From: Odobenus rosmarus divergens | Lineage: Eukaryota > Chordata > Mammalia > Carnivora > Odobenidae | DNA length: 64,000 bases | Direction: 5' to 3' | Assembly (NCBI RefSeq): GCF_000321225.1 | Contig: NW_004450567.1 | Location: 53,379-117,378 of the forward strand | Shown: positions 2,504-51,838 of the stretch, one piece after another | Layout: every line of letters starts with the position of its first letter | Numbering within the stretch: position 1 is the first letter of the stretch | Made by a program: the position numbers and the translations under genes | Notes under the pieces: generated by a model | What the model was told of the DNA's origin: nothing | Seen by the model: only the letters and a program-made list of their open reading frames with translations | Databases searched by the model: none

Positions 2504-2732
2504 GATGTCTTAGTCTGTTCAGGCTGCTATAACAGGATAACCATACATGGGTGGCTTATAAACAATAAAAATTTGTTTCCCACAGTTCTGGCGGCTAGGA
2601 AGTCCAAGATGGAGGTGTCGGCAGATTTGTACACTGTGGTCTTCTCACTGTGTCCTCAGAACCCCTTTTAAAAGGACACTAATCTCATTCGTGACAGGGC
2701 TCCACCCTTCTGCAATAATCATACAGCATTCC

Positions 2733-2832
2733 AATTACTAATGACTCCCTATTGCTTTAAGGTAAGTGCATACACCTTAATTTGAAATGCCAAGTCTTTC
2801 ACAAACTGGCTCAGTCTGTTTTTCCTAAAGTT
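2733..2832 (-). repeat. inverted duplicate A (of 4670-4769)
   Basis: Base-by-base reading of the reverse complement equals positions 4670-4769 at all 100 positions. Homology continues to 2727 after a 5-base gap. It breaks the LTR text, whereas at 4.7 kb the same sequence sits in a continuous L2-like context. This copy is therefore the inserted one. Confidence 0.93.
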
Positions 2833-2985
2833 CCCAATTCCTAGTAGCATCACATTGAGAGTTATGATTTCAACATAATGAATGTTGAGGGGACACATTC
2901 AGTATAGGTCCCAATTCCTAGTAGCATCACACTGAGAGTTATGATCTCAACATAATGAGTGTTGAGGGGACACATTCAGTATATT
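2832..2985. repeat. 77-base tandem duplication in LTR
   Basis: Two adjacent copies (from 2832 and from 2909) start tcccaattcctagtagcat and end near cacattcagtata. I count three differences between them, all transitions. Only the right part of the LTR is duplicated. Confidence 0.9.
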
Positions 2986-3110
2986 GCAGATATTAACACC
3001 AGGGGAAACTAAGTAATGGGTCTATGGAACCTCTCTGTATTATCTCAGTAAGTTTTCTAGGTATCTAAAGTTATTTCCAAATAAAATTTCTAAAAATTTA
3101 GAATGAGTTA
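2986..3110 (+). mobile_element. L1M-type 3' UTR, part 2
   Basis: Continues the L1M text after the LTR: attaacaccaggggaaac, ggaacctctctgtattatct and the end near aaataaaatttctaaaa. It shows that the LTR inserted into an already resident L1M. Confidence 0.6.
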
Positions 3111-4129
3111 CAATGATTTAAGATGAAATTAATGAAGGGTCAAATTATAGTTTTGTTAAGTTAGTCAATAGAAATTCGGATATTAAGCCATAGTTTCTTT
3201 AAGTGATTTTTTTAAAATTTATGATTATTTAGTCTATGTGCTGCCAAAGTGAGCACTATTTATGATTATTTCTTGAGAACTTAGTATATCAGTAGCACTA
3301 TGCTGGGTTATTGATTAGAAAGTGACAAAGCCTACCTGCTGCAATCCTCAAGGGACTTCATCACTTTTAATAGATATGCTCAAAGTCTGTCAAAGAGACT
3401 GCCCAAGTTTCATTAGGGAGAGGGGAGTATTTTATGAAAATGTAAGGACTAAACTAACTCTGAGAGACAGATGCCATACCTGGATCTACAAAGAGATCCG
3501 ACTATTTTTATGTATTTTAGTATCTTTATATTAACCAATTCAAACTACTTTAGTCTTTTAAATTTTTTGCCCAAGCAAGTATTACTGGCAGAATCCAGTT
3601 CTAATAAAAATTACCACATAACTAGGTTAACTCGTTGCCTTTGAATATGCAATGTCTACCAATTCACAACCTAATCGTTTCAAACTAATCTCTTTTCTCT
3701 CCCCAAGCCTAATGATTTCTTCAGGGATTAAACATTTGGGCATGCATTATGATACATTTTGCTGATGCAAACTAGCGCTTTAAGTCTGTATTTTTCAAAA
3801 TACTTGTAGTGACCTGTGAGTGAGCCATGATAGTTTTAAGTATGTCTCTATAAACATTTTTAATGAAATAGACTACAATACAATGCAATATGACAGCCCC
3901 AGAATAACCAAAAAGCTTTTAATACCACAAGGATAATATCATTTTGCAAACTTTGTTTCAATTTAGATGTGTGTGTGTGTGTGTGTGTTATAGCTTGGTG
4001 TAAAATATATTTCTTATCCATGAATCAAGAAAAGAAAGTTCAAATTCCCTGTTTTAAGGGATAGTTTAGTGTCCTCACAGGACCAGAGACAACATGAGAA
4101 GTTTTAACAATAAGCAACACGGAAGAAAA
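3111..4129. other. unique sequence with a short (GT)n
   Basis: No repeat family or exon recognised. A (GT)10 microsatellite lies at about 3969-3988. The frame at 3322-3534 has no recognisable protein features. Confidence 0.5.
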
Positions 4130-4300
4130 GCAAATAAAAAATACCATTTTTAGGAAGTTGGAAAGGCTTTATGAAAAAGGAGTGATATGAACAGAGTTCT
4201 GAAGATCTCATAGTACATAGAAGAATTCCAACAGGTAGACATGCTAGGAAATTGTAGGAGGTTATAAAAGATGAAGACAAATGCTTAATGTGAATCAGAA
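4130..4300 (-). mobile_element. L2 relic, antisense
   Basis: Text such as gaagttggaaaggctttatg, gagttctgaagatc and ggtagacatgctagg resembles the complement of the LINE-2 3' region, heavily diverged. Confidence 0.45.
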
Positions 4301-4439
4301 TGATCTAAATGTTTGTCAAAATGCAGATCTGGGGAACTTGTAACGATATTCTGATTTGATAGATCTGCAGTGTGTTCACGAAATCTGCATTTTTAACATG
4401 CACTTGTCCCACATGAGTCTGATTCATGGGGCTCAAACG

Positions 4440-4540
4440 CCAAACATGGCTGCCATTGGTCATTGGTCTACATTGCTGGGTAAGTTGAATTCTGTAATTA
4501 GGCTTTAAAAATCCCTCAACCATGTATTTTTGCTAATAAG
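4440..4540. repeat. unassigned local repeat, copy 1
   Basis: Shares with 7321-7432 the blocks atggctgc.attggtcatt and ctgggtaagttgaatt, then ctaattagg-like and ttaaaa-like text, in direct orientation. I do not recognise the family. Confidence 0.6.
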
Positions 4541-4611
4541 CTTATAGGGAAAGAAACTTATAGGAAAGAAAGCTATGCTTTCTTATGCTAGCCTATAGGA
4601 AAGAAAGCATA
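4540..4611. repeat. repeated ttataggaaagaaa units and 11-base hairpin
   Basis: The motif (c)ttatagg(g)aaagaaa occurs three times. Arms tatgctttctt (4574-4584) and aagaaagcata (4601-4611) are perfectly complementary around a 16-base loop. It lies about 60 bases left of the segment that was copied to 2.7 kb. Confidence 0.85.
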
Positions 4612-4639
4612 AACAAATTGCAATAGGTCAACGATGCCT

Positions 4640-4860
4640 GTTTGACTGGAATAAAGGATCATAAAGGAAAACTTTAGGAAAAACAGACTGAGCCAGTTTG
4701 TGAAAGACTTGGCATTTCAAATTAAGGTGTATGCACTTACCTTAAAGCAATAGGGAGTCATTAGTAATTTTTATGGAATGGAGGGACACCATCTGGATGA
4801 TTCATTTAATGTTGGTGTTAAAAGAAAGATAAACTGAAAGTGGAAGATTGGTAATAAGCA
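4640..4860 (-). mobile_element. L2-like relic, antisense; source of inverted copy
   Basis: The run caatagggagtcattagtaa followed by atggaatggagggacacc parallels antisense LINE-2 text (gggagccattgaaggttttt..gtgacatgat). Positions 4670-4769 inside it are the source of the identical inverted copy at 2733-2832. Confidence 0.5.
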
Positions 4861-5852
4861 TGTTAAATATTTAGGTATGTGTTAAAAGTCCTGGTTTATT
4901 GCAGAGAAGGAAGATTTTGCACATTGAGAGTGTCTGAGTTTTTACATAAAATATCAACTAAAGGAAAATAATAAATTTGCAGACTATGGACTTAATCAGA
5001 ATATTTAGCCACATATATCAAGCAGGAACCTCCACAACCACTAAAACAATTGCTAATATTGTGTGTTTTAACCAAAATTTAGCATATCATGTTGTCCTTG
5101 AGTTTTAATAAAAATCTCATCCCCTGGGAAACCTCATACTGCCCAATTGAAGAAAATAACAGTCCATTTTATTCATTATAAAGTGGAAAAACATTCTGCA
5201 ATGTTTGCTGCATTAAATTTCACTGGAATCGACATTAATTTTCAAAGTGAAACCACCTTTTAGATTAATTAGAGAACAATAATTCATTCCTCATTATATC
5301 TACAATGTTTTCAATTAGCCTTAAGTATGCTGAGATACTATCTCCATTTTCCACTTAAATTTTCTACATTGATAATAAATCTTGCCAGTTGAAAAATGAA
5401 AGTAAATTAGCATTAATTTTCATATCCTTGGAACCTGATATCAATTCTTAGTCACTATCAATCTATTAAAAATATTCTGTGTTCATTTGAAAGGATATAA
5501 ACATGCTTCTTATCAAATGAGAGCAGCTCCAAAATCCAACAGTGGATATGAACTCCAGGTGAACTGCAGGGTGGACTAGATAATTGTTTTAAATTTTATC
5601 TTTCACAAAGAAAATTGCATGGGGATTTCTGGAGGCTAGGGTTGTCTTTATAAGGAAATTGAATATTAAGGGAAAACAGATTTGACCCCAAGCTACACAT
5701 GCATAGATGAAATTTGGCAAACTTTCTCGATGTCCTAATGATTCCAGGAATAAACAGGGATATATGCATCCCAATCAAATGGTATTGCACAGTTAGAATA
5801 GAAAAGACCTCCATACCCCACAGCCTCAACCCAACAGGCATCAAGTTGAGTA
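4861..5852. other. unique sequence, nothing recognised
   Basis: AT-rich with no identifiable repeat. The overlapping 61- and 82-codon minus-strand frames at 5589-5844 have no recognisable domain. Confidence 0.5.
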
Positions 5853-6047: not shown

Positions 6048-6624
6048 CATCTTCAGACAATAGACTTACTCAAAATACTTAACATATGGCAGGTACACCT
6101 ACAAACACTAACATAATTGTTAATACTTGGCTCCAAGCCTACTGTGAGGTCTGCTTCTCTACAACTCATAAATGTGAACATCAGAATCATTAGCTCTAAA
6201 TTTGATCATTAGAATTCAAAAACCTCAACTCTGCTGCTTAGAGTTTACAAAAGCAGCTCTTTTCTTCAAGTATAATAATCGCTGATGTCTCAGATTAGAA
6301 GTGATTCTTATATCTAAATTGAGAGTCATAGTATTAGAAGTGTTTTCTATTTTTTTATTTTAGAGTTTTATTTTTTAAAAAAGTGAGTATACAAAGTGCT
6401 CTCCGGGAATATATCTCAAAATGTATGTATGTAGTGTCTGAGCGTGTGGGCTTAGAGCAAATGGGATTTTAGAAGTGTTTTCTAAAATCAGCTTATATAT
6501 AATACAACATTTGCTTTTGGATTTGTAAAAGCTTGTAGTAGGTGTATGGAAAGACCAAACATTTCTATTAATAAGCTTTCTCTATGGAAGTTGCTTAAGC
6601 TAAATGGTCATGGTAACATTTATT
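6048..6624. other. unique sequence with a 17-base motif reused at 7.3 kb
   Basis: No family recognised. The sequence tctgagcgtgtgggctt at 6437-6453 recurs exactly at 7343-7359. Confidence 0.5.
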
Positions 6625-7320: not shown

Positions 7321-7432
7321 TATGGCTGCAATTGGTCATTCATCTGAGCGTGTGGGCTTTGCTTTGCTGGGTAAGTTGAATTTTCTAATTAGGGTTTAAA
7401 ATACTAAACAATATATTTTGGCTGCAAAACTC
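7321..7432. repeat. unassigned local repeat, copy 2, with patch
   Basis: About 80 percent like 4440-4540 by eye, but with extra bases after ggtcatt that include the exact 17-mer found at 6437-6453. Confidence 0.6.
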
Positions 7433-14009: not shown

Positions 14010-14206
14010 GAGAATGATCTCTGGTGTCTTTTCCTCTTCTTGTGAGGACACAAATCCTGTGGGATTAGGGCTTCATGCTTATGACTTCATTTAATCTTAA
14101 ATACTTCTTTAAAGGTCCTATCTCTAAATATAGTCAAACTGGGGGTTAGCACTTTAACATATGGATTGGTGGGGAGGAGGGGACACAATTCAGTCCATAA
14201 CAGATA
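14010..14206 (-). mobile_element. MLT1-type LTR fragment, antisense
   Basis: tcttcttgtgaggacacaaa, then cctatctctaaatatagtca and ggacacaattcagtccataa are the complement of the 5' part of an MLT1 LTR. Confidence 0.7.
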
Positions 14207-20216: not shown

Positions 20217-20600
20217 GTATTAGTTTCCTAGAGTTGCTATAACAAAATATCACAAACTGGGTGGCTTAAACATGGACATGTATTGTCACAGTTTTGGAGC
20301 CAAGACTCCAAGATCAAGGTGTACACAGGGTTTGTTTCTTCTGAGGTCTGTGAGGGAAGGCTCTATTTCAAGCTTCTCCCCTTGGCTTATAGATGATCAC
20401 TTTCATGTTCACATGGCATTCTCCCTTTATGCAAGTCTATCTCCAAATTTCTTTTTTAAGAATACTAGTCATATTAGATTTAGGCCACCTGATTACCTCC
20501 TTTTAACTTGGTAAAAACCTTATCTCCAAATAAGGTCATGTCCTGATGTACTAAGGGTTGTGATCTTCAGCATAGGAATTGGGGTGGGGGGAACAACCAT
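20217..20600 (-). mobile_element. MaLR/ERVL-type LTR relic, antisense
   Basis: gtattagtttcctagagttg, ctgggtggcttaaacatg, ccaagatcaaggtgtacac, ttagatttaggccacctgat and atctccaaataaggtcatg form the usual antisense order of an MLT1-like LTR. The right end is blurred. Confidence 0.65.
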
Positions 20601-44380: not shown

Positions 44381-45210
44381 NNNNNNNNNNNNNNNNNNNN
44401 NNNNNNNNNNNNNNNNNNNNNNNNNNNNNNNNNNNNNNNNNNNNNNNNNNNNNNNNNNNNNNNNNNNNNNNNNNNNNNNNNNNNNNNNNNNNNNNNNNNN
44501 NNNNNNNNNNNNNNNNNNNNNNNNNNNNNNNNNNNNNNNNNNNNNNNNNNNNNNNNNNNNNNNNNNNNNNNNNNNNNNNNNNNNNNNNNNNNNNNNNNNN
44601 NNNNNNNNNNNNNNNNNNNNNNNNNNNNNNNNNNNNNNNNNNNNNNNNNNNNNNNNNNNNNNNNNNNNNNNNNNNNNNNNNNNNNNNNNNNNNNNNNNNN
44701 NNNNNNNNNNNNNNNNNNNNNNNNNNNNNNNNNNNNNNNNNNNNNNNNNNNNNNNNNNNNNNNNNNNNNNNNNNNNNNNNNNNNNNNNNNNNNNNNNNNN
44801 NNNNNNNNNNNNNNNNNNNNNNNNNNNNNNNNNNNNNNNNNNNNNNNNNNNNNNNNNNNNNNNNNNNNNNNNNNNNNNNNNNNNNNNNNNNNNNNNNNNN
44901 NNNNNNNNNNNNNNNNNNNNNNNNNNNNNNNNNNNNNNNNNNNNNNNNNNNNNNNNNNNNNNNNNNNNNNNNNNNNNNNNNNNNNNNNNNNNNNNNNNNN
45001 NNNNNNNNNNNNNNNNNNNNNNNNNNNNNNNNNNNNNNNNNNNNNNNNNNNNNNNNNNNNNNNNNNNNNNNNNNNNNNNNNNNNNNNNNNNNNNNNNNNN
45101 NNNNNNNNNNNNNNNNNNNNNNNNNNNNNNNNNNNNNNNNNNNNNNNNNNNNNNNNNNNNNNNNNNNNNNNNNNNNNNNNNNNNNNNNNNNNNNNNNNNN
45201 NNNNNNNNNN
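44381..45210. other. assembly gap (830 N)
   Basis: Continuous run of N. The right edge abuts a young L1 3' end, so the unresolved part probably contains the rest of that L1. The stated length may be an estimate. Long X-filled reading frames across it are meaningless. Confidence 0.99.
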
Positions 45211-48780: not shown

Positions 48781-48862
48781 TAATGTGTACATGTCTGAAT
48801 CTACATAGATGCCTTTTCAACCAGCCTCCTGATGTTTATCCAAAAAGCTGACATGCTCTGAT
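48781..48862 (-). repeat. foreign insert in L1 tail, inverted copy of 50.0 kb
   Basis: The 32 bases at 48831-48862 are the exact complement of 49981-50012. The decamer at 48793-48802 (gtctgaatct) is the complement of agattcagac at about 50024-50033. About 28 bases between them have no match found. At the left edge gtacac / gtgtac form an inverted repeat. Confidence 0.88.
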
Positions 48863-48924
48863 CTAATATAACACTGCATGTTTATTACACTTGAATAATA
48901 AAAAAAAGTGCGGGATTCCCCCAC

Positions 48925-51838
48925 ATTCCCTTGTTCTTCAGTCTGTTATGAAAGTATATGAGAGAGTGAGGAAGCATGGCACTTCCATATGCTGGGAAGG
49001 AGAATGGAAACACTTGTGAGCAGCTGTAATGACTGTCTTAGTCTTCTTTTCTGAGGGGAGGAGAATAATTATCCCTGAGGTATTCTAGTTTCAGCCCCTC
49101 ACCCAACAAGCGAAAGAGAAATAAAAGAGCAGAGCCTGCTCACTCCCCATTCCAAATCTACTGGGAGAGAGCAGGAGCTAAAGTTTCAATCAGAAAGAAG
49201 ATCAGAGTTTTAAAATAAACTCACTTTAAAATCATCAAAAGTGACCCCAATTTTAATCTGTCCAAGATTCTGTCCAAGATACTATAAGGAGAAATTCATC
49301 TAAGCATGGTCCCAGTCAATGACTGGAGGGAAACAGAGCAGTGTCCTATTCATTTCCCACTGAGTACAGACTATTCAAGAAACCAGTTACAGCTATGACC
49401 CCATTGGAGAGCTGTTGTGCCAAGATGAATGTGGACTCTGAAAAAGATGAACATGGGAAAAAGATGAACATGGGATATGATAGAACTGAGTTTGAAAGCA
49501 GGTACAGAATGTTTTAAATCTAAGAAAGCGTAGAGTGATACTCAAAAAGTTTAGAAAGGAAAAAACAAAGATGAGTACAGTCTTAAGAGTTTGACCAAGA
49601 CATGGACTTCTCTGTCATTACTAGAGAAATACCAAAAATAGATGAGCATAGAAATTGATTTTTAAAGTCTCTATCTCAGATCCTGAATTTCCAAACAGGA
49701 AACCTGCCTAAATTAGAAACGTACACAGTGACCTAGATGCCAGTGTCCTGGGGTATGAAAATACTCATATGTCCCCATGCCTAAACACAACACCCAAAAG
49801 ATCACCTAATGTGTTGGAGCAGACAGTGGGGAAAGCGGTATTCCTTCTGATGCAAAAAGTAAGATATCAATAACTGAGTTTATTTTTGAAAATGGCATTC
49901 CCACCCATTAGTGGTTTAGTGGCTATGAATGAATGTCTCGACTAATCAAAACAGACTTTTAGATGTGTTGAATACCAGAGATCAGAGCATGTCAGCTTTT
50001 TGGATAAACATCCAAATCTGTCCAGATTCAGACTGTAACTATGGACTAATTGGAAGTGTTCTGGACAGAGTACCTTATGATCAGGGAATGTAGATGGTCC
50101 CTAAAACAACTTAAGCAGGGCAATTTTCCATGAGTTGCTTTGCTCTGAGATCAATCTGACTAAACTCTAACACTTCGCTCATCTTCTTTCAACACCTGAT
50201 GCTAATAAAAGAGCAGTGATGGCTCATAGACAAGATTTGAAAAACAGGTGTCAGATAGATGATTTCAGGGGAATTGGCCTAGTCCCTAACCAGTTAGAAC
50301 AGATAAGACATTATCAGAGCTGCTGGAAGCTCAATCAGCTGCTTCATCAGCTTTTGGGAAGCCTGGGGTAAGCACCTTCCCTGAGGCCTTTTCCAAAACA
50401 TACTGGCAAGATAAGACTGCTCTACCTTTTTAGTTTGAGGTCATTTTGTTTATTTTATCTTTTGTTAGCCTTGCCTGAGGATACCGATTCCAAAAAATAT
50501 TGCTAAAACCAATGTCAAAGACCTTACTGTCTATGTTTTCTTCTGGGAGTTTTACATCAATTATAGTTCAAAAAAATTTAAAAAAGTGTGCTCATAACTA
50601 CAAATGTTCAGGCCCATCAATCCACCTGCCACGTAAATGATTGGGTAACAGGCAAAGGTAGAAGGCTTTGCAGGAGGAGGTCTGAGCCCACAGTGGAACT
50701 AAAGACAACACTTCCAACCACAACAGGAGGATTCAGAGGTACCCAAGAAGGTAGAGAAGTGTGACTGCCCATGTCTTAGCTTTCCTATGGGCAAGGTGAA
50801 CATTTTGCGGGAGGCTACTCTCACGAATGTGAAGTCAAAGGCGTGGGAATCACACAGAAGCAAAAGCAGGCTTGATGGATCTTGAAAACCACAAACCAGT
50901 TAGGAAAAAAGATTGCCACGGTCCCAAAAGAAACTAGTCCCTGATCCAGTTAGGAAGGGAAAACTCCTGAAATTACCCCTGGTGACAGATTCAGAGTGGG
51001 AAAGGGATTGACGGTGACTTGGCAGCCTCTACCTCCCATGGGCACAGGAAAAGCTTTCAGAGCTCACAGCCTGGACCCCCCCCTCCCAGGGACCTCCGTA
51101 AAAATAGAAAAGGGATTAAAACACAAAAATAGGACTTCCTTAGCCAGATTTTTGAGATTCTGAAGCAGAGAGAAAGTGAACAATGGGCTAGAAATTCTGG
51201 TTGGAAGACCAGTCTGGACTGTTGTTCAAAATTAAGTTCTGTGTGTGGCCTCCTTTAAGGCAAAGACAGCTTCTCACTGCCTGAAGAAGCTATAAATGCT
51301 ATGATCAGTCAACCATGGAAAAATGAAGATCTCAGAAGGTCCTTGCCCAAGTTTTCTGAGCAGTTAACTGCCTGAAACTTTGGTCAAGACCCCTGGAAGA
51401 ATAGAACTCTCTAAGAAAAGCAGAACTAAGGTTTAATTTCCCACCAGTAAAGCATGGAGCCTAGAATCCAGGTTCTATCAGAGTAATACAAAATATTAAA
51501 TGGTGATTTTTCTCCCATCTGAGCAAATTCATATCTAAATACATGTATTGAGTAAATATGTCTCTAATCAAAGGCTTCTCCTGGATACAAAAAATATTTT
51601 TTTGTAATATTTGGAAAAGAGGGAAAAAAGAAACAAAATATCTGCATGATTTTACCACTAGAACTTCTGGCCATTACTGCCTAGTTGGTATATGACTTCA
51701 GTGAAAAGAGTCATTCTAATGGGTTGGATGGCATTCTGTACCTTTTGAAACAGTAGTAGAGTTGCTCAAAGTTTGGTATAGTTACTCTTATTACACCCAG
51801 TCCCATAATATAAATACCACCTATATATTCTGATGACT
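48925..51838. other. 2.9 kb of unique sequence
   Basis: No interspersed repeat recognised. A 17-base perfect tandem pair (aaaaagatgaacatggg) lies at 49441-49474. The block at 49981-50033 is the source of the insert in the neighbouring L1. Confidence 0.5.

Follow-up and report, generated by a model that had tools for sequence, protein, structure and literature searches.

The window analysed here, a 64,000-nt stretch of the walrus (Odobenus rosmarus divergens) genome, carries two 100-nt segments that are identical on opposite strands, one of them inside an LTR. The locus raises three questions, namely which of the two segments is the original, how the other came to lie where it is, and how long ago this occurred. 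An earlier note, made from the letters of the window, had proposed that the LTR received a copy, likely by replication template switching. In this study, we examined the pair, its junctions, and its surroundings, and compared it with known classes of local duplication. The coordinates of the features are listed in Table 1.

Table 1. Features of the inverted pair and its surroundings (positions in the window)
Feature	Positions	Strand	Evidence
Host LTR, left part	2506..2732	-	At least 39 other assembly matches; in-window relative 20219-20332
CATTCC, 6 nt common to the donor side 4775-4780 (minus) after a 5-nt skip	2727..2732	+	Direct comparison
Acceptor, inverted 100-nt copy breaking up the LTR	2733..2832	+	Identity, copy number, LTR comparisons
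Right junction TAAAGTT, donor letters similar to the LTR site	2826..2832	+	14k relative, genome copies
Tandem duplication of LTR sequence, 77-nt units 2826-2902 and 2903-2979	2826..2979	+	Repeat search, unit comparison
Host LTR, right part with the two tandem units; approximate at its outer end	2833..3000	-	Relative at 14112-14206
Donor, single-copy 100-nt segment	4670..4769	-	Arm identity, genome copy count, flank search
Donor flank: 5 skipped nt (4770-4774) and CATTCC complement (4775-4780)	4770..4780	-	Direct comparison

The inverted pair among other local pairs

Direct comparison bore out that 2733-2832 and 4670-4769 are exact reverse complements over 100 of 100 bases, and the identity between the two arms ends abruptly on both sides. 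A repeat search of the window placed the arms 1837 nt apart. The pair had the highest identity of three BLAST self-matches in the window (at least 35 nt, at least 93%). In the assembly (2.378 Gb, 2085 contigs, E ≤ 0.001), the 100-mer is present in exactly two copies, which are the two arms. Exact local pairs (no more than 5 kb apart, at least 16 nt, counted after a complexity filter) numbered 19 in the window, whereas none of 10 Markov simulations yielded any. Many of the 19 pairs are attributable to repeat families, which the Markov model omits; hence, the genome copy-number search is the stronger control. The simulations and the genome copy count of two rule out a chance origin of the 100-nt pair. 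Neither the insert segment nor its flanks matched the virus, phage, plasmid, or bacterial and archaeal collections, a result that has no bearing on orthologues.

Contiguous own-genome sequence of 264 kb, including 22,344 N (830 from the window, the other 21,514 from the neighbouring stretches), was surveyed for exact local pairs of at least 20 nt. After the complexity filter, 30 rows were obtained, 21 of which had at least six approximate copies in this sequence. The remaining nine had two or three copies and represent approximately seven independent pairs, including the insert and its tandem neighbour; also included were inverted pairs of 34/34 nt at 1.1 kb and 24/24 nt at 0.8 kb and a direct pair of 35/35 nt at 3.5 kb. 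Thus, the 100-nt pair is the longest in the 264 kb, yet it is not alone in kind. The 34-nt inverted pair (48831-48864 and 49979-50012) has flanks without evident homology and is possibly another small local templated copy. The 35-nt direct pair (L011, C304:193665 and C304:197135) has two copies in the 264 kb.

Several further features of the window were noted. SINE sequences point to a carnivoran genome. A diverged direct repeat (4473-4534 and 7364-7423, 82% over 62 nt) lies upstream of the donor and stops short of it. The interval at approximately 6334-6484 has a T-rich start and, by eye, a 16-nt flanking direct repeat (TTAGAAGTGTTTTCTA), and it looks like a minus-strand retroposed insertion. 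An exact direct pair of 17 nt (TCTGAGCGTGTGGGCTT) is found at 6437-6453 and 7343-7359, 0.9 kb apart, and the 7343-7359 copy seems, by eye, to break the similarity to the repeat near 4440-4534. The 830-base N run at 44381-45210 adjoins a repeat end, presumably L1-like, that recurs near 19.5 and 53.4 kb.

Donor, acceptor, and direction of copying

The left flank of the insert (2506-2732) gave 2728 first-look candidates in the assembly; scores were listed for 40 of them, one being the window itself. The 39 other listed matches reached 80-87% and covered no more than the first 124 bases of this 227-base flank. Two diverged relatives of the LTR lie inside the window, at 20219-20332 (the 20k relative) and 14112-14206 (the 14k relative). 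The insert therefore sits inside a multi-copy element, as had been claimed; the name MLT1-type that accompanied the claim is presumptive, and so is the minus strand taken as the LTR sense.

The insertion point was compared in the 12 best-scoring of the 39 listed family copies. It was bridged without a long break in 11 of these 12, and the twelfth (L035) failed to align at the site. Of two further LTR relatives, one is broken by another repeat at the site and the other is unaligned there. Aligned with two LTR relatives on both strands, the 100 nt scored no better than shuffled sequence, which rules out an LTR origin of the segment. Excision was also scored. Against the 14k relative, the score rose from 268 to 301, and from 143 to 216 under stricter gaps, when 93 nt were removed and TAAAGTT was kept; removing all 100 nt gave 273 versus 277 for the intact sequence, so the gain depends on keeping TAAAGTT. 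With the 20k relative, the intact sequence scored 495 and the excised one 418; a shuffled insert scored alike (mean 500.5), so this comparison reflects a length effect and is uninformative.

Since 11 of the 12 compared family copies are uninterrupted and the 100 nt lack homology to the LTR, the insert is foreign to the LTR, and the segment at 4.7 kb is the donor. The proposal that the LTR at 2.7 kb received the copy thus holds. The description of the donor context as L2-like fared differently. A search with the donor and its flanks (4540-4900; assembly, E ≤ 0.001) returned its own locus and, elsewhere, the 100 bases of the acceptor. The context is single-copy in this search, which leaves both the L2-like label and the notion of the donor as a repeat component unsupported, although a very diverged L2 could escape such a search.

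Junctions and the adjoining tandem duplication

At the left junction, the further six matching bases described after a five-base gap were found: CATTCC, directly before the insert, is the complement of 4775-4780. Random pairs are expected to match in a terminal 6-mer within 16 nt in 0.5% of cases (calculated post hoc). Where relatives show a clear AATCA-CTCC stretch, they are, by eye, approximately six bases shorter ahead of the site than the window copy; hence, CATTCC may represent either donor sequence copied together with filler or native LTR sequence. The match suggests either a left-junction microhomology or the first copied bases, an ambiguous assignment.

At the right junction, the donor goes on beyond TAAAGTT with TTCC and the copy with CCCAATTCC. 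The corresponding site reads TAAAGGT in the 14k relative, TAAAAA in the 20k relative, and TATAGGT in the second tandem unit. In the 12 compared copies (best of the 39 listed), it reads CAAAGG in three, CAAAGA in one, and otherwise in eight; CTCC followed by CAAAGG occurs in two of the 12, and AAAG is found at the junction point in four of the 12 and in one in-window relative. The right-end 7-mer agrees with TAAAGGT at six of seven positions, a fit shown by 0.19% of random window 7-mers (post hoc). If the acceptor resembled the 14k relative, then TAAAG, a mismatch, and T would have been common to donor and target. Because the motif is inconstant in the LTR family, the letters before the insertion, and with them the AAAG microhomology, are inferred.

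The junctions also bear on whether a short RNA from the donor locus was retroposed. No direct repeat near the junctions is longer than CCAATT (6 nt), which overlaps them and could speak for such an event. Reading it as a target-site duplication seems less favoured, since GGTCCC is retained there in the second tandem unit, as in the LTR relatives. By eye, neither insert end carries a poly(A/T) tract of at least 5. In PMC2671141, such tails are given for 0 of 39 inspected proximal pairs versus 17 of 29 in the other group. Retroposition is accordingly extremely improbable.

An assembly or library artefact, such as a chimeric molecule, was considered because the insert length of exactly 100 is a common read length, and the assembly consists of 2085 contigs with an 830-N gap in the window. 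We hold this to be very unlikely. The sole gap of the window is 40 kb distant, the letters in common at the junctions amount to just 4-6 nt, which should be too short for an assembly overlap, and the LTR family is otherwise continuous at the insertion site. That the 264 kb contain other exact local pairs of low copy number, whether or not these break up repeats, points the same way.

The tandem duplication, which goes unremarked in the earlier note, begins within a few bases of the right junction of the insert. Its 77-nt unit was found once each in six of the 12 compared copies and in the 14k relative (E ≤ 0.01); the other six copies and the 20k relative fell below this threshold. With the initial junction bases set aside, 3 of 74 positions differ between the two units, compared with 0 of 100 between insert and donor; this contrast is not significant (Fisher p = 0.075). 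At the junction, the second unit has GGT where the first carries the GTT of the donor. The 3/74 versus 0/100 contrast and the GGT of the second unit, which is as in several LTR relatives, favour duplication first and insertion later. Alternatively, the tandem duplication and the inverted insert would have arisen together in the germline in a single complex event, during which the template was switched three times in succession (from LTR to donor, to LTR, and back); we regard this as improbable. If true, the locus would preserve a small MMBIR-like scar of natural origin in a carnivoran germline.

Age, mechanism, and known classes

The age of the insert was estimated with a rate of 2.2e-9 substitutions/site/yr multiplied by 1.18 for dog (both from PMC2671141), that is, 2.6e-9, applied to two copies and assumed for this genome. 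At this rate, 100 bases would still be free of differences with a probability of 0.60 after 1 Myr, 0.21 after 3 Myr, and 0.05 after 5.8 Myr. The lack of mismatches suggests youth, and the insert is probably younger than about 6 Myr at the assumed rate. The earlier note had offered recency or gene conversion. The first of these agrees with the 0/100 differences and the rate, and the second is not needed. An older duplication held identical by conversion between the arms would explain the complete identity, and conversion is feasible for inverted copies at a distance of 1.8 kb; the sharp ends of identity speak against it, and youth suffices, as the 0.05 chance is reached only at approximately 5.8 Myr at the assumed rate. 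We therefore give conversion very little credence.

The insert is, in our judgement, fairly probably a proximal repair-mediated duplication made by synthesis-dependent break repair. A break inside the LTR would have left a 3' end (CATTCC) on its left side, which would have paired imperfectly with the CATTCC beside the donor, 1.8 kb off on the opposite strand. Approximately 100 nt would then have been copied from the donor with a 5-nt skip, after which the new end TAAAGTT would have been released and annealed to AAAGG(T)-like LTR sequence across the break. We infer a double-strand break as the trigger, synthesis from left to right, and synthesis-dependent strand annealing (SDSA) rather than fork switching or polymerase-theta joining.

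Fork template switching of the FoSTeS/MMBIR type, in which a stalled fork in the LTR copies 100 nt of the donor strand and returns with no double-strand break, is a possible but rather unlikely route. The short junction matches are compatible with it, the abutting 77-nt tandem duplication is what serial switches could leave, and ape switch products of up to 128 nt are reported in PMC7954356. However, the short-range class described there needs a template within 100 nt, whereas here it is 1.8 kb away, and the divergence of the tandem units (p = 0.075, not significant), together with the GGT of the second unit, favours two separate events. Simple fork switching and SDSA give the same product and are indistinguishable from sequence alone. 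Of the "replication template switching" proposed earlier, templated copying stands as a class, and switching at a fork is just one of several templated routes.

Break repair by SDSA is also the route favoured for the class that the insert most resembles. Pace, Sen, Batzer and Feschotte (2009; PMC2671141) screened TEs interrupted by sequence present at one other place. Human donors lay within 5 kb in 824 of 1,136 cases, the acceptor had a mean of 162 bp and a maximum of 619 bp, and all 39 inspected proximal pairs had no poly(A/T) tail and showed signatures of microhomology, filler, deletion, or target-site duplication. Complete identity was seen in seven human-specific pairs, one of 10 PCR-tested pairs was still polymorphic, and the authors favoured SDSA at double-strand breaks. 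Human polymorphism data also tie meiotic break repair to template-switched insertions (PMC7615360).

Like the proximal duplications of PMC2671141 (insert of at least 50 bp in a TE, one other copy, donor within 5 kb), the walrus insert comprises 100 nt within an LTR that is continuous in 11 of the 12 compared copies, has one other copy in the genome, and lies 1837 nt from its donor (more than 50 bp, less than 5 kb). The breakpoints of the class show microhomology of 2-9 nt, a small deletion or filler, and no poly(A). Here, the left junction has CATTCC with the 5-nt skip, and the right junction presumably has the AAAG-like match. As far as the available text of PMC2671141 goes, the acceptor here differs in being abutted by a tandem duplication and otherwise in nothing essential; one opposite-orientation example is given there, and orientation is not tabulated in that text.

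Other classes are less close. Doublets, described by Thomas et al. in 2004, are reportedly short exact local pairs of 25-100 bp, about 1 kb apart and tending to the same strand. The walrus pair is likewise short, exact, and local, but it is inverted. Short-range template switch clusters share the reverse-complement templated insertion; their length has a median of 12 nt and a maximum of 128 (PMC7954356), and their template lies within 100 nt, whereas it is 1837 nt off here, outside that range. Foldback inverted insertions of yeast are likewise templated inverted copies made at a break with the use of microhomology; unlike the walrus insert, they are mostly of approximately 5-34 bp with microhomologies next to the break (PMC11724301).

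All testable features fit the already described repair-mediated duplications, of which, on these sequence comparisons, the walrus insert appears to be a further case. It adds one data point to a class with 192 cases in dog (PMC2671141) and leaves the understanding of the process unchanged. Exact inverted pairs of this kind require no special explanation. The locus offers a clean instance of DNA captured locally in a mammal outside the primates, in which a single genome suffices to tell donor from acceptor.
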